From assembly GCA_016744115.1 (NCBI GenBank), contig JADGEZ010000009.1:1-56259 (forward strand): a DNA stretch of 56,259 bases, written 5' to 3'. This DNA comes from Sulfurimonas sp. GTDB lineage: Bacteria > Campylobacterota > Campylobacteria > Campylobacterales > Sulfurimonadaceae. The notes under the pieces are model-generated. The model did no database searches, was not told the origin of the DNA, and saw only the letters and a program-made list of their open reading frames with translations. The position numbers and the translations under genes are program-made. Positions 2,384 through 12,502 of the stretch are shown piece by piece; position 1 is the first letter of the stretch, and each line of letters begins with the position of its first letter.

Positions 2384-3133
2384 ATGAATGAAAAAAAAGT
2401 TCTTATTGTTGAAGACGATGAGATAACAGCTTTAAACTTAAAAATATCACTTCAAAAACAAGGGTATAATATTCTTTGTATTTCAGATAATATAGCTGAT
2501 GCTAACATTCAAATAGCTAAACTTCATCCAGAAATTATTATCATAGATATTTCACTTGAAGAGAGTTCCGATGGAATTACCTTAGCTAAAGAGATTAAAA
2601 CAAGACACCATCTCCCTTTTATCTACCTAACATCTTATACGGACAATGAAATAATAGCACAGGCAAAAGAGACAGAACCCTATGGTTATATCGTAAAACC
2701 ATTTGATCCAAACTCCCTTCATGCTACCATTCAAATGGCTTTACATAAATACGATTCAGAAAAAAATAGAAAGAATGAGCTTTTATCCCTTAAAATGGAT
2801 AAATCAAACCTAGAAAAACTCCTTTATAGTAAAAAAGAGGCACATGAACCTATAGTTAATTTTGGAAAAAATTACCATCTTGATATTAGTATCTGTGAAA
2901 CATTTTACAAGGGTACAAAGATAAAACTAACTAAAAAAGAAAATGCTTTTTTACGCCTACTAGTATCGCAAATGGGAATGGTTGTGAACTTTGAACAAGC
3001 CATGAAATATGTTTGGGAAGAGAGTGGTGCAACCGAAAATAGTGTAAGAACACTTGTCTGGAGACTTAGAAGTAAACTCAAAGATGACATTATCAAAAAT
3101 GCTTCTGGACTTGGCTACTTCATAGAAGAATAA
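2384..3133 (+). CDS. Response regulator transcription factor, OmpR/PhoB-like
   Basis: A 249-residue two-component regulator. The N-terminal receiver domain has the acidic pair D11/D12, phospho-acceptor D55 (IIIIDIS), the switch Ser/Thr in LTSYTD and the Lys of YIVKPFD. After a short charged linker, residues 150-249 form a winged-helix DNA-binding domain ending in SVRTLVWRLRSKL...GLGYFIEE, as in OmpR/PhoB. AAAGG lies 9 bases before the ATG. It converges on the hybrid kinase gene with a gap of only 7 bases, so the kinase is the obvious partner candidate. Targets are unknown. Confidence 0.92.
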   Translation: MNEKKVLIVEDDEITALNLKISLQKQGYNILCISDNIADANIQIAKLHPEIIIIDISLEESSDGITLAKEIKTRHHLPFIYLTSYTDNEIIAQAKETEPYGYIVKPFDPNSLHATIQMALHKYDSEKNRKNELLSLKMDKSNLEKLLYSKKEAHEPIVNFGKNYHLDISICETFYKGTKIKLTKKENAFLRLLVSQMGMVVNFEQAMKYVWEESGATENSVRTLVWRLRSKLKDDIIKNASGLGYFIEE

Positions 3134-3140
3134 CAATCTC

Positions 3141-5492
3141 TTAAGATTCAACTATCTTTATGCTTGAAACTATTTTTTTAATCTCTTGATACTTACTCAT
3201 GTAGTTGTATTCGCTGTTATTTTTTCTTGCCATCTCTTCTAAAGTATTTGCTTTTTCTTGTAACTCCTCCATTCTAAAATTTGCACTTGAACCTTTTATA
3301 GCATGAGAAAGTGATTGTATTTTTTTATAATCCATTGTGTCGATAGCATCTTTTAACTCTGGTATAGATTTACTCATTTTTTTAATAAAAAGATTTACTA
3401 GCATTATTATTTCATCTTTATTAAGGGCAAGTTCTTCTCTTAGTTTTGTCATATTTAAACCAAAAATAAGTTTTTGAGTAGCACTTGGCTCTATTGCGAC
3501 ACTCTCAGCACCAGATAAGATTTTAAGATACATCGAAAAAACTCTCTCTAAGTCTTTCATAATAATAGGCTTACCTAAAAATGAATCAAAGCCATTTAAC
3601 AACCCTCTTTCTTTAGCACCCTTAATTACATTTGCTGTTAAGGCTGATATTGGAGTATGTCGTAATTTATTTTGATTTTCGTATGCAATAATGAGAGTTA
3701 CCGATTCATTCCCATCCATAATAGGCATCTGTTCATCCATTAAAATTAAATCATAATCATTTATTTTGTACAGTTCATAAGCTTCTAAACCATTGTTAGC
3801 CATATCATAAGTAAGACCATATTTTATTAAAATAATTTTTATAAGTTCTTGATTAGCTTCATTGTCTTCTGCAATAAGTATATGTCCTGAAAATTGAGCT
3901 AAAGATTTTTTATTTGGTGTATAAGACTGATCAGGATTTGACAATTCTTCAAAGGCTGTGAAAATTTTAGAACAGTACAAAGGAAAACACATAGAACTAA
4001 TATTATTAAACTCATAATATTCATCATAGTCTTTACTCATTAATACAATATACTTTTTAGAAGATTTAAATATTATTTGTTTTGTCTTTAAGTCTATCTC
4101 TTCATGAACAAAGATAAAAACATCAAAATTAGCTTCTATCGAATTTGTTATCGTGGTATTCATCTCAAATATATCAAAATATTTTATGAGTGTTTGATAT
4201 TGAAAAGAGATATGACCATCTTGAGAGAAAAGACCTATTTTTAACTTTTTCATATCATTATAACCATCGAATATTTTACATTGATTTGTGTGAATATCTA
4301 TAGGGATATTCATAGAAAAACTACTACCCTCTCCAAATGTTGATTCTGCATCAACACTCCCATTCATTAACTTTGCTAATTGAAGACAGATTGAAAGTCC
4401 TAATCCAGTTCCTGTATGAGAACTATTTTCATTAAACTGAGCTTGTGCAAAAGCTGTAAATATATTTTTAATATCAGCTTCTTTAATTCCCATTCCATCA
4501 TCGCTAACACTTATTTTTAAGTTTCTATCATCACAACTAGCCTCTACACAAATTACACCACCATTTTGTGTAAACTTGATTGCATTACTTAAAAAATTAG
4601 AAAGGATTTGCTTTATTCTAAGAGAATCACCAAACAATTCTTTAGGAATCATTGGGTCTATAAAAGAAGTAATAGTTATATCTTTACTTGTAGCACTTGC
4701 AATAAAAAGTTCCATCGTATGGGATACCTCTTCATGTATAGAAAAAAACTTAGGCTCTACGCTAAACTCTCCACTTCTAAGTTTAGAAAAATCTAAAATA
4801 TCATTAATTATACTGAGTAAATTCTTGCCACTGTCTTGAATAATATTTAGATAAGAATTTTGTTTTTTTGTAATATCCTCATCAAGCATTAAGTTAACAA
4901 AACCTAAAATGGCATTTAAGGGTGTACGAATTTCATGAGACATATTTGATAAAAAATAATCTTTTGCTTGTCCAGCCATCTGTGCTTCATGCTTAGCATC
5001 AATGAGTTTATTAAAAATAGAGTTTGTATAAAAATGTAATACACCTCTAAAATTTGTGTCAAACATATGCCAAATTTCATCAAATATCTCTTTAGAATCA
5101 ATATTCGCTTCATATGTAAAATTTATCATAGATTTTCTAAATTGAGAACACAAATCAAACACTTCATCAGCACTTGTCTCTCTATCTTTTAGATAAACTA
5201 AAAGTCTATTCATTACAGGGCAATCACCTATTACTAACTCGCCAACAACCACACCCATAAAATAATCGAATACTCCACTAGCATATTCATCTATAAATAT
5301 TCCAGGATTAATATTATGTAATTTTAAAATATTTTTAGGAGAGGGGGAAGATATCCATTTAACTAAAATATTCTTTTTTGAGCTTTTAAAGATTTCTTGA
5401 TGTTGGATTAAGTTGGGGAATATACTTAGCACTGGCTTCCTTAGCTCATAAAAAAATATGATAAAATCATTATAAGTGTTAATTTTATACAT
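3141..5492 (-). CDS. Hybrid sensor histidine kinase with receiver and HPt domains
   Basis: A cytoplasmic-looking phosphorelay kinase of 783 residues from the ATG at 5492. Order of parts: an N-terminal region of about 170 residues that I cannot assign (it contains NPGIFIDEYASGVFDYF and a conserved-looking GDCPVM); HisKA with H186 in SNMSHEIRTPLNA; HATPase with LSNAIKFTQNG, DDGMGIK and GTGLGLS; a receiver with EDNEAN, LILMDEQMPIMDG and GKPI; and a C-terminal HPt with LSHAIKGSSANF. No membrane segment is evident. The start overlaps the pseudo-deformylase gene by 52 bases; a TTG 39 bases further upstream is possible but less likely. The HPt could pass phosphate to the adjacent response regulator. 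A kinase of sulfide or redox state is an inference from the neighbouring sqr. Confidence 0.9.
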   Translation of the reverse strand: MYKINTYNDFIIFFYELRKPVLSIFPNLIQHQEIFKSSKKNILVKWISSPSPKNILKLHNINPGIFIDEYASGVFDYFMGVVVGELVIGDCPVMNRLLVYLKDRETSADEVFDLCSQFRKSMINFTYEANIDSKEIFDEIWHMFDTNFRGVLHFYTNSIFNKLIDAKHEAQMAGQAKDYFLSNMSHEIRTPLNAILGFVNLMLDEDITKKQNSYLNIIQDSGKNLLSIINDILDFSKLRSGEFSVEPKFFSIHEEVSHTMELFIASATSKDITITSFIDPMIPKELFGDSLRIKQILSNFLSNAIKFTQNGGVICVEASCDDRNLKISVSDDGMGIKEADIKNIFTAFAQAQFNENSSHTGTGLGLSICLQLAKLMNGSVDAESTFGEGSSFSMNIPIDIHTNQCKIFDGYNDMKKLKIGLFSQDGHISFQYQTLIKYFDIFEMNTTITNSIEANFDVFIFVHEEIDLKTKQIIFKSSKKYIVLMSKDYDEYYEFNNISSMCFPLYCSKIFTAFEELSNPDQSYTPNKKSLAQFSGHILIAEDNEANQELIKIILIKYGLTYDMANNGLEAYELYKINDYDLILMDEQMPIMDGNESVTLIIAYENQNKLRHTPISALTANVIKGAKERGLLNGFDSFLGKPIIMKDLERVFSMYLKILSGAESVAIEPSATQKLIFGLNMTKLREELALNKDEIIMLVNLFIKKMSKSIPELKDAIDTMDYKKIQSLSHAIKGSSANFRMEELQEKANTLEEMARKNNSEYNYMSKYQEIKKIVSSIKIVES

Positions 5493-6253
5493 ATAATAAC
5501 GAATGTACCAACAATATTTCCTATCTGGCAACTTGTACAGGATGTAAACAATCTCCCCTCATACTGTGCATAAAAGAAATATATTATACTCAAACTAAGT
5601 GTAGCAAAAGATAAATATAATTGATAATTTAAAAGAGAAGTTCCCTCCTCTGCCCTTTGAATAAAAAAAGAACTCAAGAATAAAAGTACCATAAAAATCA
5701 TACTAAAGTTGATTATTTTAAGAATATAATCTCTCTTAAATGTTGTAGGGCAAGACTCTGATATAGCAATATCACTTCCATGTTCTAGTTTTTGCTCAAA
5801 AATTACCTTCTCTTCTTGAGATAACTTGTTTAAAAAGCTTGAGCCAAAAGTGTAGTCTATTTTTCTCTGCAATAAAATACTAAAAGCACCCTCTGCCTTA
5901 AATGAATGTTGTTGCAGTTTTCTATCCTCATAAATGATAGATATTTTTTCATGTCTTGTCACTTTTGCCGTAATACCTGGAAAGTAAGCTGTTGATTCAC
6001 TTGTAGTAACCCTACCCTTTGTACTTAACATTCTTGGATTTATAAGTTCTAGGAAAGTTCCATCTTCTTGTTTAATAACTATAACATTATACATGCTGCC
6101 AATCTGAAAAGCAGTAAGTGCGTCAAGAGAGTTATGATTTATAGTGTCTTTTAAATCATCTATTAAAGAAGATATTTCATCTGTGAAAATTCGTACATCT
6201 GTTGAGTATTCTACACTTGGAGGTCTTGGGTATGTGATTATTTCTTTAACCAT
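5441..6253 (-). CDS. Membrane-anchored peptide-deformylase-like protein, active site lost
   Basis: Residues 1-148 follow the peptide deformylase fold step by step: YPRPPS (usual YPDPRL), a helix ending SSLIDDLKDTI, LTAFQIG for motif 1 (usual GLAAPQIG), LELINPRML, ESTAYFPG (86-93) for motif 2 (usual EGCLSxPG), EGAFSILLQRKIDY (121-134) for motif 3 (usual QHExDH) and FLNKLS. The metal Cys, both His ligands and the catalytic Glu are all replaced, so deformylase activity is not expected. Residues about 178-198, 211-229 and 246-268 are three hydrophobic segments, which ordinary deformylases lack. AAGGG precedes the ATG. It lies between a 54-residue gene downstream of sqr and the hybrid kinase, probably in one operon; a binding or sensing role is my inference. 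Confidence 0.75.
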   Translation of the reverse strand: MVKEIITYPRPPSVEYSTDVRIFTDEISSLIDDLKDTINHNSLDALTAFQIGSMYNVIVIKQEDGTFLELINPRMLSTKGRVTTSESTAYFPGITAKVTRHEKISIIYEDRKLQQHSFKAEGAFSILLQRKIDYTFGSSFLNKLSQEEKVIFEQKLEHGSDIAISESCPTTFKRDYILKIINFSMIFMVLLFLSSFFIQRAEEGTSLLNYQLYLSFATLSLSIIYFFYAQYEGRLFTSCTSCQIGNIVGTFVIICIKLTLIMILSYFFMS

Positions 6254-6270
6254 GTATATTCCCTTGAAGT

Positions 6271-6287
6271 TCTCCCAAAAAGGGAGA
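6271..6287 (-). other. Small hairpin between the 54-residue gene and the deformylase-like gene
   Basis: TCTCCC-AAAAA-GGGAGA forms a perfect 6-bp stem just upstream of the ribosome-binding site of the deformylase-like gene. No run of U follows in the minus-strand transcript, so it is not a standard terminator. It might tune mRNA decay or translation between the genes. Confidence 0.35.
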
Positions 6288-6295
6288 GATTAAAA

Positions 6296-6460
6296 TTAGT
6301 GACTTTTACCAACCACAATTAACATTTTAATATTGATCACAATAAATCTAATAAATTGAAAAATAACACAAGTTCTTAGTTTCTTTTGAAATGCACCTGG
6401 TGTCATTGTTCCAAAGTTTTGTGTATATGCCCTAATATTTCTTTCTTCTTTTAATGCCAT
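6296..6460 (-). CDS. Small 54-residue cationic protein between sqr and the deformylase-like gene
   Basis: An ATG at 6460 with AAAGGAAA about 8 bases upstream opens 54 codons ending in TAA. The product starts MALKEERNIRAY, has TPGAFQKKLRT in the middle and a hydrophobic, Arg/Lys-studded C-terminal half (VIFQFIRFIVINIKMLIVV). That half could lie on or across the membrane. Spacing to sqr (42 bases) and to the next gene (42 bases) fits an operon. I do not recognise the family. The good ribosome-binding site and full-length frame in a compact genome argue that it is real; low complexity is a caution. Confidence 0.6.
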   Translation of the reverse strand: MALKEERNIRAYTQNFGTMTPGAFQKKLRTCVIFQFIRFIVINIKMLIVVGKSH

Positions 6461-6502
6461 AATATATTTCCTTTAATTTAGTCTATTCATAAAACTTTCA
6501 TC

Positions 6503-7972
6503 CTATTCAGGGATGAGAGTCCAACCTGGCTTTAATTTTGCTTTGTAGATAAACATATGATGAAGTATATGTTTAATCCAATGACCAGCAAGACCAATTT
6601 CACCAAATGTATGATTAGTATCACGCCCTGTTCCAGGATATTTATCAAAATCAGGAATAACAGGATAAACAGTCATCGCAGCTGCTGTTCCATCAAAAAT
6701 TCCTTTACCAGTTGATGCAACACAGGCTGCCCCCATATCTGCCATTGAAATTTTATGAAGTTCTGCATCTTCACCCTTAGTAATCAAATCACAAACACTA
6801 TGAGCAACAGCCTTACCAATGATACCAGCAGGCATACCTGTTCGTGGTGGTGCTGGAGTAATTACAGTACCATTTGGCGATTTCATTGGTTTTGAAATTG
6901 GATGTGGTGGTGCAAAAGCAATACCAGGTGCAAAAATATTTTTATACGCTGAACTCTGATATGTAGAAGGCCAATCAGATGCTTTCCATTGATTATAATC
7001 AGTAACACCATATTTAGCATCAACTTTCATAAATTTATTTGGAGCAAACATAGTATCAGAAATATCTGAACCATCTTTTGCTATAGCTTTTAAATCAACT
7101 CCAGTAAAAGGAGGAATAAGCATCGCAAAGTCAAACTCTTCTTCACCCATTTCGCCATCAAGGAGTTCGTAATGAACCTTGCCCTCTTCGACTTTGTTTA
7201 CATGAGCACCAACTATCCAAGGGATACCACGCTCGGTAAATAATGACTCTGCAAATATCTTAGAACTAACAGCAAATCCCATAGATTTCATATGCAGTCC
7301 ACCCATACCAAAGTCGCCTAGAAAAGACTCGTTTGATATCCATTTGATGTCTGCCATATCACGAACACCAGCCTTATTTAACTCATGCTCAACATTGAAA
7401 ATATACTCAAATGCAGCACCTTGACATGTACATAGACCATGACCAGTACCGACAAGGATTTTTTGACGAACACCTGATTTCATCTTTTCTATTGCTTCTT
7501 TAAGCTTATCATTTGCATGAACAGCATGACCAGCGGTACAAACAGAAACTGTATGTTCCCCTAACTCACTCCCTTTTCCTAGACCCTCAGTCGCACCAAA
7601 GTTTAACTTAGGACCAGTAGCATTTACAAGATAATCATACTCAACTGTTGTAACTTCACCCTCTGAACCTGAGCTAGTTGATTCAACGGTTACAAAAGCC
7701 TTCTCTATTGTATCGCTTCCCTCTGGATGAATTTCGGTAGCTTTTGCTTGAATAAATGTAATTCCAGCTTTTTTATATACAGGAGCCAAATCAAAAGTAA
7801 CTTCTTCTTTTTTCATTTGACCAACACCAACCCAAATATTCGATGGAATCCAGTTCCATTGAGAGTTTGGAGTTACAACAATAACCTCATGCTCTGAGCC
7901 TAACCATTTCGCAGCGAATGTTGCAGTCGTATGACCAGAAACACCACCGCCTAATATAACTAATTTTGCCAT
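6503..7972 (-). CDS. sqr: Sulfide:quinone oxidoreductase family flavoprotein
   Basis: Peripheral membrane flavoenzyme expected to oxidise sulfide to sulfur or polysulfide and pass electrons to the quinone pool. The 489 residues start with an FAD-binding GGGVSG (8-13) and include ATGPKLNFG (118-126), a second nucleotide-fold segment VGTGHGLC (174-181), PPFTGVD (287-293) and an FAPGIAFAPPHP block (348-358). Cysteines at 145, 181, 183, 394 and 417 are candidates for the redox site; GLCTCQGAAFEY is distinctive. The C-terminus (HWIKHILHHMFIYKAKL) is amphipathic, as in quinone-reducing members. AGGGAG precedes the ATG. SQR subtypes are hard to separate by eye, so I do not assign one. It leads a probable operon with the small protein, the pseudo-deformylase and the kinase. 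Confidence 0.88.
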   Translation of the reverse strand: MAKLVILGGGVSGHTTATFAAKWLGSEHEVIVVTPNSQWNWIPSNIWVGVGQMKKEEVTFDLAPVYKKAGITFIQAKATEIHPEGSDTIEKAFVTVESTSSGSEGEVTTVEYDYLVNATGPKLNFGATEGLGKGSELGEHTVSVCTAGHAVHANDKLKEAIEKMKSGVRQKILVGTGHGLCTCQGAAFEYIFNVEHELNKAGVRDMADIKWISNESFLGDFGMGGLHMKSMGFAVSSKIFAESLFTERGIPWIVGAHVNKVEEGKVHYELLDGEMGEEEFDFAMLIPPFTGVDLKAIAKDGSDISDTMFAPNKFMKVDAKYGVTDYNQWKASDWPSTYQSSAYKNIFAPGIAFAPPHPISKPMKSPNGTVITPAPPRTGMPAGIIGKAVAHSVCDLITKGEDAELHKISMADMGAACVASTGKGIFDGTAAAMTVYPVIPDFDKYPGTGRDTNHTFGEIGLAGHWIKHILHHMFIYKAKLKPGWTLIPE

Positions 7973-8117
7973 ATATTGTTTTCTCCCTATAAAAAGAATT
8001 TTTTAAACTTTAATCTAACTAAATTATAACCATATTTATTATAGTTTCAATTTATTTTTATAATTATGTTTATTTTTATTTATATGTGTGTATATTTACT
8101 ACATCAATAAAGACTTA

Positions 8118-10682
8118 TTAACTAGCTTTTAAAATCTTTGAGATAATCTCATATACATTTTTAGATATATTTTCTGTACTAAGGATAAACTCTAATTCTG
8201 TTTTCATTAAAATCTTATTTTTCTCATTCATTTTTTCATACAACTTAAATGCTCCTGCTAGACCTGATGCCATTTGTGCATTTATTTTATCTATCTCTAC
8301 AATCTTTTTTGATACAAATTTATATCCACTTCCATCTTTAGCATGAAAATGTTTATAGTTTCTTGCAAAAACTCCGATAAGTGAACGTACGAGGTTTGGC
8401 ACTTTTACATCATAAACTGCATCATTTTGTAAATCTATGACCCTCTTTAGTGTGCCTTCTCTTTTTGATGCTGCTAAAATTGCAAAATATTTATTCATAA
8501 CAAGAGTATCATCTTTATATTTTTCATAAAAATGTTTTTGAGCTATCAAAGCTTCCTCTTTTGATGAGTTTTCTAAAATATCAAGTGCTGATATTCTATC
8601 CGTCATAGTGAGAGAGTTTTCATACTGTTGTTTTACTATCTTCGTTATTGCATCATTTTCTAAGATACTTAAAAGTCTTAAAACTCTATTTTTAAGAGAG
8701 CGTTTAGCCATACTCTTAGCATCAATAGTATCAGACTTAGGTTCATGATATTGATTATAGACACTTAAAAGTTTCTCTTTATAGGCATTTGCTAAGTATT
8801 TTGAGAGTTTTTCTTTTGCAGTATAAATCTGATCAAAATCAACTATATCTTGTCTTTGCATCAAGCTTGAAACTGAGGGTAACTCTAACAAAAGTGCTTT
8901 AAAAGATAAATCCACATCTAAATCAAGTAAGTATCCATAGGCGTCTGTAAATTCAGCATCTATTTCTTTGCCTTGCATCAATGCTTCTAGGGTTTCTAAT
9001 GCAAATGTCTGTGCTGATTCGTATTGTACAAAGCTATTCGTATCATGTTTCATCAAAAAAGATAGATTTGTTTTTTCCTCTTTGATTATAATAGGTGCTG
9101 AAAAATCACGGTTTAAAGAGAGTATAGGTTCATCTTCTAAAGCATCAAAGCTAAATACCTCTTCTTCTTTAGAAACTATTAATGTTTTGGCTAAAATCTC
9201 TAAACCATTTTTATCTAATAATGCTATTTTCAAAGGGTAAAGATAGGCTTTTTGCTTTTTTCCATCTATTGAGTTTGGAATATCTTGGGTTAAAGTTACT
9301 CGCAATACCCCTTTTTCAAACTCCGTTTTTACATGGAGTATTGGTGTTGCATTTTGATGATACCATCTCTTAAACTGTGTTAAATCAATACCACCTGCCT
9401 CACTCATAGCCCATAAAAAATCTTCTATTGTAACAGCCTGTGCATCAAAACTCTCAAAATATAAATCAGTAGCTTTACGGTATTTTTCTTCCCCTAAAAG
9501 AGTATGAATCATACGGATAACTTCCGCACCTTTTTCATAAACTGTAGCGGTGTAAAAGTTGTTCATAGATATATACGATTTTGGCTGTATAGGATGGGAT
9601 GTTGGTGATGAGTCTTCAACAAACTGTCTCTCACGAAGTGCTTTTACATCTTCTATTCGTTGTACTTCTAAAGAGTTTAAATCTGCTGAGAAACATTGAT
9701 CTCTAAAAACCGTAAGACCCTCTTTGAGTGTTAGCTGAAACCAATCACGGCATGTGATTCGATTGCCAGTCCAGTTATGAAAATACTCATGTGCGATAAC
9801 AGACTCAATCCCCATAAAATTAGCATCAGTTGCAGTATCATGATTTGCTAAAACATACGCAGAATTAAAAATATTTAAGCCCTTGTTTTCCATCGCACCC
9901 ATGTTAAAACTATCTACTGCTACTATGTTATAAATCTCTAAATCATATTCTCTATTATATTTTACTTCATCCCAGACCATAGCCTCTTTTAAGGATTTCA
10001 TAGCATGAAAGCACTTACTTTCATTGCCTATATCACAATATATATTTAACTCTACCACATCTCCTGATGCAGTTGTAAAAGTATCCTCAAGCTCTCCTAA
10101 ATCTCCAACCACTAAAGCAAATAGATAGCATGGTTTTGGATGTGGGTCATGCCAAGTAGTTTGGTGTCTTGAAGCATCTATGTTAGTAGATTTTTGTTTA
10201 TTTCCATTTGAAAGTAATATAGGGTATTTTTTTTTCTCGGCAATAACAGTAGTAGTGAAAATACTCATAACATCAGGGCGGTCAAGGTATGGGGTTATTC
10301 TTCTAAAACCCTCTGGTTCATTTTGTGTGCAAAAAATATCTGCTGATTTATAAAGTCCTTCTAGTTCTGTATTGTTTTGAGGATAGATTTTATTTATAAT
10401 TTTTAAACTAAACTCATTGGGAACATTAAAAATACTTAGTTTCTCATTTTCATAAACATAACGAGTATCTTTTAATAACAAATCATTTAACCATAACTCT
10501 TTTAGTTCAAGGTCTATGCTATCTAGTACAATATCTTTAGCTATATCATCTAACTTGCTAAGCTTCATAGTATTACTAACTAAGGCGTAGTCTTCATATA
10601 AATCAAATGTTAATTCAACACTTTTAATTTCATATTTTGGTTTGGTATAATCTATTAGGTAATTAGTTTGCATCTCTGACAT
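8118..10682 (-). CDS. pepN: Aminopeptidase N (M1 family zinc metallopeptidase)
   Basis: Removes N-terminal residues from peptides in the cytoplasm. The 854 residues carry the exopeptidase motif GAMEN (262-266), the zinc motif HEYFH (298-302) followed by NWTGNR, and the third ligand E321 in LKEGLTVF. Length and the bacterial PepN ending (DUF3458-type Ig-like and helical parts) are normal. It is monocistronic in appearance, divergent from the SH3 protein gene with about 100 bases between them. Confidence 0.96.
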   Translation of the reverse strand: MSEMQTNYLIDYTKPKYEIKSVELTFDLYEDYALVSNTMKLSKLDDIAKDIVLDSIDLELKELWLNDLLLKDTRYVYENEKLSIFNVPNEFSLKIINKIYPQNNTELEGLYKSADIFCTQNEPEGFRRITPYLDRPDVMSIFTTTVIAEKKKYPILLSNGNKQKSTNIDASRHQTTWHDPHPKPCYLFALVVGDLGELEDTFTTASGDVVELNIYCDIGNESKCFHAMKSLKEAMVWDEVKYNREYDLEIYNIVAVDSFNMGAMENKGLNIFNSAYVLANHDTATDANFMGIESVIAHEYFHNWTGNRITCRDWFQLTLKEGLTVFRDQCFSADLNSLEVQRIEDVKALRERQFVEDSSPTSHPIQPKSYISMNNFYTATVYEKGAEVIRMIHTLLGEEKYRKATDLYFESFDAQAVTIEDFLWAMSEAGGIDLTQFKRWYHQNATPILHVKTEFEKGVLRVTLTQDIPNSIDGKKQKAYLYPLKIALLDKNGLEILAKTLIVSKEEEVFSFDALEDEPILSLNRDFSAPIIIKEEKTNLSFLMKHDTNSFVQYESAQTFALETLEALMQGKEIDAEFTDAYGYLLDLDVDLSFKALLLELPSVSSLMQRQDIVDFDQIYTAKEKLSKYLANAYKEKLLSVYNQYHEPKSDTIDAKSMAKRSLKNRVLRLLSILENDAITKIVKQQYENSLTMTDRISALDILENSSKEEALIAQKHFYEKYKDDTLVMNKYFAILAASKREGTLKRVIDLQNDAVYDVKVPNLVRSLIGVFARNYKHFHAKDGSGYKFVSKKIVEIDKINAQMASGLAGAFKLYEKMNEKNKILMKTELEFILSTENISKNVYEIISKILKAS

Positions 10683-12091: not shown

Positions 12092-12502
12092 TTATTTGAA
12101 CTCAATATTTTCATATCTGTCATAAAGCCATACAGCTACAGCATGTGCTTCTTTTTTTGTAATTTGCTCTTTCATAGAAGGCATAGTTCCGAATTTTTCT
12201 AATGCACCTGCATGGCACATACTAAAATCAAGGTTTGGATGCATGATATAGTCTTTAACAAAGAGTATAAATAAATGGCGATCTACATCGTCTTCTTCAT
12301 CTTTAGTTTTTATATTTTCTTTGAGTCTTGCTGAGACTTCAATCATTGGAGGTGCTTTCATTTTAGAAAGCTTAGCCATAACTTCTTTTTCACTCATTAT
12401 TTCAACATGGCAAGATTTACAGTTTTTTTTATATACTTCATAGCCCTCATTAGCAAAAAGACTAGCACCTAGGAGAAAAGAGGATAAAAATATTTTATTC
12501 AT
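12092..12502 (-). CDS. Periplasmic c-type cytochrome, single haem
   Basis: A signal peptide (MNKIFLSSFLLGASLFA) and one haem-binding motif, CKSCH (28-32), indicate a periplasmic c-type cytochrome of 136 residues. A Met in FGTMPSM near the C-terminus is a plausible sixth ligand. The stretch between has many charged residues (TKDEEDDVDRH) and a lone Cys in MCHAG. It probably shuttles electrons to an oxidase or another periplasmic enzyme; the partner cannot be told from context. Confidence 0.85.
   Translation of the reverse strand: MNKIFLSSFLLGASLFANEGYEVYKKNCKSCHVEIMSEKEVMAKLSKMKAPPMIEVSARLKENIKTKDEEDDVDRHLFILFVKDYIMHPNLDFSMCHAGALEKFGTMPSMKEQITKKEAHAVAVWLYDRYENIEFK

Follow-up and report, generated by a model that had tools for sequence, protein, structure and literature searches.

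A sulfide:quinone oxidoreductase module with a small partner protein and a pseudo-deformylase, set beside a separable two-component system in Sulfurimonas

Does a sulfide-oxidation gene in Sulfurimonas form one signaling circuit with the histidine kinase and response regulator encoded beside it, or do the two halves of this five-gene locus belong to different systems? The DNA analyzed here (the window) is a whole contig of 56 kb (C21) from a near-complete, 2.05-Mb Campylobacterota genome, whose closest relative on the kinase tree is Candidatus Sulfurimonas ponti. Four of the genes lie on the minus strand and encode, in order, a sulfide:quinone oxidoreductase of 489 residues (SQR; 6503..7972), a protein of 54 residues (6296..6460), a pseudo-deformylase termed PDFL (5441..6253), and a soluble tripartite hybrid histidine kinase (3141..5432). 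The fifth, for a response regulator of the OmpR family (2384..3133), is on the plus strand and converges on the kinase gene. ORF and family searches located all five genes where the initial annotation had put them, and its spacings of 42 bases between SQR gene and small ORF, 42 bases between small ORF and PDFL gene, and 7 bases between regulator and kinase genes were confirmed. Dozens of Sulfurimonas-type genomes have the genes in this order, which rules out a chance neighborhood.

Two details of the layout required revision. A reported overlap of 52 bases between the kinase and PDFL genes hinges on an ATG at 5492, but the kinase most likely starts at the GTG at 5432, which leaves a gap of 8 bases instead. 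This start is preferred because homologous kinases begin at the residue encoded by that GTG, because AAGGAAG precedes it beside the PDFL stop codon, and because the resulting length of 763 residues is near that of relatives without a PAS insert (mostly 760-764). Likewise, sqr had been described as the lead gene. It is indeed the first of the four, but 145 bases further upstream the same strand carries pepN, which encodes an aminopeptidase N of the M1 family (8118..10682, minus strand) and whose synteny is conserved. The unit therefore need not begin with sqr. Elsewhere in the window are a dnaJ gene near the regulator (410-1537), a gene for a small c-type cytochrome (12092-12502) that precedes the cluster by a few genes, and an imperfect inverted repeat near the contig end (TTTTGCAAGAAGTCTATTA ... 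TAATAGACTTCTTGCAAAA; 70-156) that is possibly a mobile-element end.

The best reading of the locus is that its core is an SQR module and not a signaling unit. Our survey sample comprised 397 Campylobacterota genomes of at least 90% completeness plus the window's own genome, and SQR of the window's type was found in 111 genomes of this sample. Co-occurrence of all five genes across Campylobacterota had been proposed as a check on the cluster, and the outcome is divided. The PDFL gene adjoins sqr in 71 of the 79 genomes that carry it, and within the window's family 43 of 47 genomes with SQR also have the kinase, but it is not found at that strength in the SQR genomes of other families. The SQR module occurs without the kinase and regulator in several of those families (loci L060-L063, and L150-L177 except L164), and at L060-L063 PDFL accompanies SQR. 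Three further loci (L148, L164, and L179) have the kinase beside SQR without PDFL. Because the SQR module occurs without the kinase, and the kinase without PDFL, PDFL is tied to SQR and not to the kinase.

The kinase and regulator, in turn, persist without the module. In four genomes of the same genus that lack SQR (G336, G424, G002, and G024; loci L200-L203), pepN is joined directly to the kinase gene. The convergent regulator is next to the kinase in three of these genomes, and in G424 its ortholog is on another contig. The four genomes occupy four separate places on the kinase tree, each beside an SQR-bearing relative, and the starred branches of that tree force four changes. SQR, the small ORF, and PDFL were thus lost as one block four times, while the kinase and regulator were kept. 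The two-component pair is independent of the SQR module.

SQR enzymes oxidize sulfide and hand the electrons to quinone, and they are usually regarded as stand-alone peripheral flavoproteins. Assignment of the window gene to this family was borne out by a Pyr_redox_2 match and by best PDB matches that are solved SQRs, including the Aquifex aeolicus enzyme 3hyv (phmmer E 1.7e-39 over residues 4-300, with a second domain at 338-422). The cysteines in VCTAGHA, CTCQGAA, and ACVASTG align with those of 3hyv, such that all three conserved cysteines are present. By homology, the gene product is a sulfide:quinone oxidoreductase, and reduction of quinone with sulfide is its predicted reaction. Under the scheme of types I-VI of Marcia et al. 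2010, as applied in PMC4584964 and PMC7952632, the window enzyme resembles the known types in its FAD-binding fold and three conserved cysteines, and it is widespread in Sulfurimonas, as the available portions of these two papers report for both types IV and VI. Those portions mention neither a small subunit dedicated to SQR nor a partner of the pseudo-deformylase kind. A literature search for a deformylase or small protein tied to sqr, with most subscription journals outside its reach, found none.

A small ORF nevertheless follows this type of SQR directly on its 3′ side, on the same strand, in all 114 of the 114 copies in the survey sample, and a 13-row profile of its product matches in 112 genomes of that sample. 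Only two matches lie away from SQR, one beside a second PDFL gene and the other weak and with an in-frame stop. The former, a second pair of small ORF and PDFL without SQR (L182, G344:C95, 5300-6278), suggests that the two proteins can act jointly apart from SQR. Three genomes carry a second SQR copy (L158, G021:C45; L159, G039; and L171, G283), each with its own small ORF and no adjoining PDFL. The association also extends beyond Campylobacterota, where plasmids of Marivivens (Alphaproteobacteria) and Thiodictyon (Gammaproteobacteria) encode SQRs at 62% identity, each followed by a 52-residue 'hypothetical protein' that matches the small-protein profile, with E-values that hold for this five-sequence set only. 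The protein has one hydrophobic or amphipathic helix (residues 32-50) and the invariant motif R..Q..RF..IN.KM..VV.KSH, and conserved Arg, Asn, and Lys residues are present in the helix. It has no match in Pfam or NCBIfam, and a PDB profile search gave nothing convincing. Judged from its sequence and position, the 54-residue protein most likely serves SQR as an anchor or as a small subunit in the membrane.

PDFL belongs to the Pep_deformylase family (E 1.2e-29), and its residues 1-157 are modeled as a deformylase fold (E 4e-13 and TM 0.85 by target length against 2ew5 of Helicobacter pylori). It shares this fold and a sequence relationship with peptide deformylase (PF01327), from which it differs in that the motif I Gly, the motif II Cys, and the HExxH ligands of motif III are gone. 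In the alignment to 2ew5, the deformylase Cys/His/Glu/His positions are occupied in the window protein by T88, R130, K131, and Y134, and the same replacements are found in 96 (T), 97 (R), 97 (K), and 98 (Y) of 100 distinct full-length PDFLs. With every metal ligand and the catalytic Glu replaced, PDFL cannot be an ordinary metallo-deformylase. Nor is it the working deformylase of its genome, which has a separate, ordinary enzyme on contig C74 that is 25% identical. Other residues (E86, Q129, D133, and G137) are invariant among the 100 sequences.

What PDFL has gained, relative to peptide deformylase, is a C-terminal region of three predicted membrane helices with a triad of cysteines, which a disordered linker joins to the deformylase domain. 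C168, conserved in 98 of 100 sequences, lies just before the first helix. The turn that leads into the third helix holds C239 and C242 (C-x-S-C-Q-x-x-N), both present in 100 of 100, as are E232 and Q243. This topology rests on an AlphaFold model that was built on 23 rows and has a pTM of 0.54. In the model, the triad and the deformylase domain are on one and the same side of the membrane, so that the cysteines would face the cytoplasm if that domain is cytoplasmic; no signal peptide was seen. A PDB profile search with the C-terminal domain gave nothing convincing.

Among the surveyed genomes, the PDFL C-terminal domain occurs in 79, all of which have SQR (Fisher 4e-57, a figure that ignores shared ancestry, which inflates co-occurrence), and the 71 adjoining copies lie directly downstream of sqr on the same strand at similar spacing. 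Some genomes have PDFL paralogs away from sqr, beside unrelated genes. Paralogs of a distinct subgroup (PTTPSLEFGANVR...) are found away from sqr at L053, L054, L055, L057, L058, L059, and L065; two of its members are near an NrdB-like gene, and the same Cys motifs are present where the proteins are complete. In database records, the PDFL of Sulfurovum mangrovi is annotated by NCBI as 'peptide deformylase', and on plasmid NZ_CP087125.1 of that species (L218, 5868-6683) an apparently frameshift-split PDFL is annotated as two such genes. A metagenome-assembled contig labeled Helicobacter pylori PMSS1 (L132, CAMCYD010000077.1) carries the trio of SQR, small ORF, and PDFL, and this label is probably wrong.

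The kinase has the Pfam order HisKA, HATPase_c, Response_reg, and Hpt, with the H-box SHEIRTP, the receiver Asp in LILMDEQMP, and the Hpt motif HAIKGS. Tripartite kinases of the BarA/ArcB type share this order, but the window kinase differs from them in having no membrane segment and another input domain. That domain (142 residues; 5007..5432, minus strand) is predicted to be all-helical and globin-like (model pLDDT 91). Its nearest folds are RsbR-N and the Bacillus anthracis pXO1-118 and pXO2-61 inhibitors (2bnl, 3pmd, and 3pmc; VIA Z 12.9-13.8, with 2bnl_A at 12.9 and 3pmc at 13.8), although haem globins follow at Z 11-12 and values of this size are common for helical models. The domain may share the overall helical fold of these non-haem globin-fold sensors but is only about 12% identical to them, is fused here to a hybrid kinase, and has the cysteines C71 and C95, which are invariant in the set compared. 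H39 is its only invariant His, and the helix taken as F (72-83), where haem globin-coupled sensors have their proximal His, has none, though haem might be ligated elsewhere. Searches of Pfam and PDB profiles with the domain gave nothing convincing. It is a general sensor domain, since elsewhere in the order it forms the N-terminal part of further proteins, among them other kinases and one that resembles diguanylate cyclases. At L204-L211 (mostly family f9), it is found in PAS-kinases of about 500 residues beside dnaJ and a 190-residue RecR-like gene. The regulator has a receiver (PF00072, E 1.3e-19) and a winged-helix Trans_reg_C domain (PF00486, E 3.3e-13), as is characteristic of the OmpR/PhoB family.

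Direct repeats with an 11-bp period are the operator geometry of OmpR/PhoB regulators, and scanning the DNA upstream of sqr for k-mers recovered TKTGATA repeats with precisely this period. Two copies at ≤1 mismatch are present in 50% of the 56 sqr upstream regions of kinase loci, in none of 31 from kinase-less families, in none of 40 pepN upstream regions, and in 5% of other upstream regions; periods other than 11 are not enriched. Where the kinase of a locus lacks a PAS insert, three copies are usually present some 35 nt ahead of the sqr start codon, and the repeat is mostly absent from loci with PAS-insert kinases. In 60 whole genomes of the Sulfurimonas type, this triple repeat is found 21 times at ≤1 mismatch, 18 of them upstream of sqr, as do all of its zero-mismatch occurrences, and a reversed control pattern gave two matches. 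A related arrangement at ≤2 mismatches precedes 43% of the regulator genes, versus 4% after shuffling. Because this OmpR-type triple repeat is nearly confined to sqr upstream regions, the regulator probably controls sqr through a putative 11-bp operator in Sulfurimonas. In the window, the homologous site (7973..8117, minus strand; GGTTATAATTTAGTTAGATTAAAGTT) is degenerate, and no copy at ≤2 mismatches was found anywhere in that genome. Control of sqr is therefore likely for the genus and only an extrapolation for the window. A search for an alternative target in the four SQR-less genomes found no copy at ≤2 mismatches, and pepN was ruled out as a target because its upstream region has no repeat.

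Taken together, we consider it reasonably probable that the locus is an SQR module that comprises a small membrane subunit and, as an accessory, a dead deformylase, and that in one family this module is placed under a separable two-component system that controls sqr. The 54-residue protein, as an obligate partner, would dock or orient SQR on the membrane. PDFL would be a second accessory that binds SQR and either holds or relays its sulfane-sulfur product or senses sulfur locally, which is the weakest step of this scheme. In the Sulfurimonadaceae, the module sits between pepN and the kinase gene. There, to judge from domains and gene position, the soluble kinase with its globin-like input would phosphorylate the convergent regulator, which would act on the sqr operon through the direct repeat. 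Because the kinase-regulator pair outlives the module, it presumably serves other purposes too. In a bolder and distinctly tentative extension, this SQR type would be a multi-protein membrane enzyme with an unnoticed subunit of about 54 residues, found in Campylobacterota as well as in an alphaproteobacterium and a gammaproteobacterium at the least. In many Campylobacterota, a dead, tethered deformylase would join it and would take up or sense nascent sulfane sulfur through its Cys triad.

Other interpretations deserve consideration. The initial annotation proposed that the kinase and its partners sense sulfide, persulfide, or quinone state and control sulfide oxidation. In a model of this kind, all five genes would be one circuit, with PDFL as a receptor in the membrane that turns the kinase on or off. 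The tight spacing of PDFL and kinase genes (8 bases in the window, with a median of 11 over 75 loci), the lack of a membrane segment in the kinase, and the sqr-specific putative operator are all consistent with this idea. However, PDFL and SQR occur together in kinase-less families, the kinase is found beside SQR without PDFL, and it is also found without both, and we regard the single circuit as quite improbable. The proposed control of sqr is likely to stand, but a single sensing unit does not fit a kinase and regulator that outlive four losses of the other three genes.

The opposite proposal, that the kinase and regulator are mere neighbors of ancestral pepN linkage which do not control sqr, and that the operator belongs to another regulator, is unlikely but carries somewhat more weight. 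It would explain why four lineages without SQR still have the regulator and the synteny of pepN with the kinase gene and why the window genome has no recognizable operator, and it accommodates the repeat pair of G427 and the degenerate pair of G367, since no regulator ortholog was detected in either genome. Yet the repeat has OmpR/PhoB geometry and is found only in the family with this OmpR-type regulator, the related arrangement precedes the regulator gene itself, and in G020, where only the kinase has been lost, both the repeat and a 68% identical regulator encoded elsewhere are kept. Finally, PDFL might still be an enzyme, whether its chemistry has changed and does without metal or it is a housekeeping paralog of deformylase with nascent SQR as its substrate. 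Its well-kept fold and four invariant residues (E86 to G137) would suit such a role, but the nearly uniform exchange of metal ligands and catalytic Glu for the same other residues, along with the separate ordinary deformylase in the genome, makes this very improbable. We therefore retain the SQR module with separable regulation as the preferred explanation.

A precedent for such regulation is the NreBC two-component system, which senses sulfide and controls sqr in Bacillus licheniformis (PMC9918477). Both systems adjoin sqr, and the regulation of sqr that is reported for NreBC is a conjecture for the window. The window system differs in its OmpR-type regulator and its tripartite hybrid kinase with globin-like input, and the available portion of the NreBC paper names no pseudo-deformylase or small SQR partner. 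Sulfide regulation is also not covered in the available portion of a review of respiratory regulation in Campylobacterota (PMC6682613).

PDFL genes are easy to miss, since at least one record labels them peptide deformylase. The Sulfurimonas/Sulfurovum group dominates sulfidic vents and redoxclines, and where SQR docks and what becomes of its sulfur product matter in these organisms. For docking and for the handling of sulfur, the one-to-one small partner and the pseudo-deformylase restricted to SQR genomes are candidates that can be tested directly. Likewise, the putative operator that is specific to sqr, together with the two-component pair encoded nearby, offers a concrete entry to sulfide regulation in Campylobacterota.
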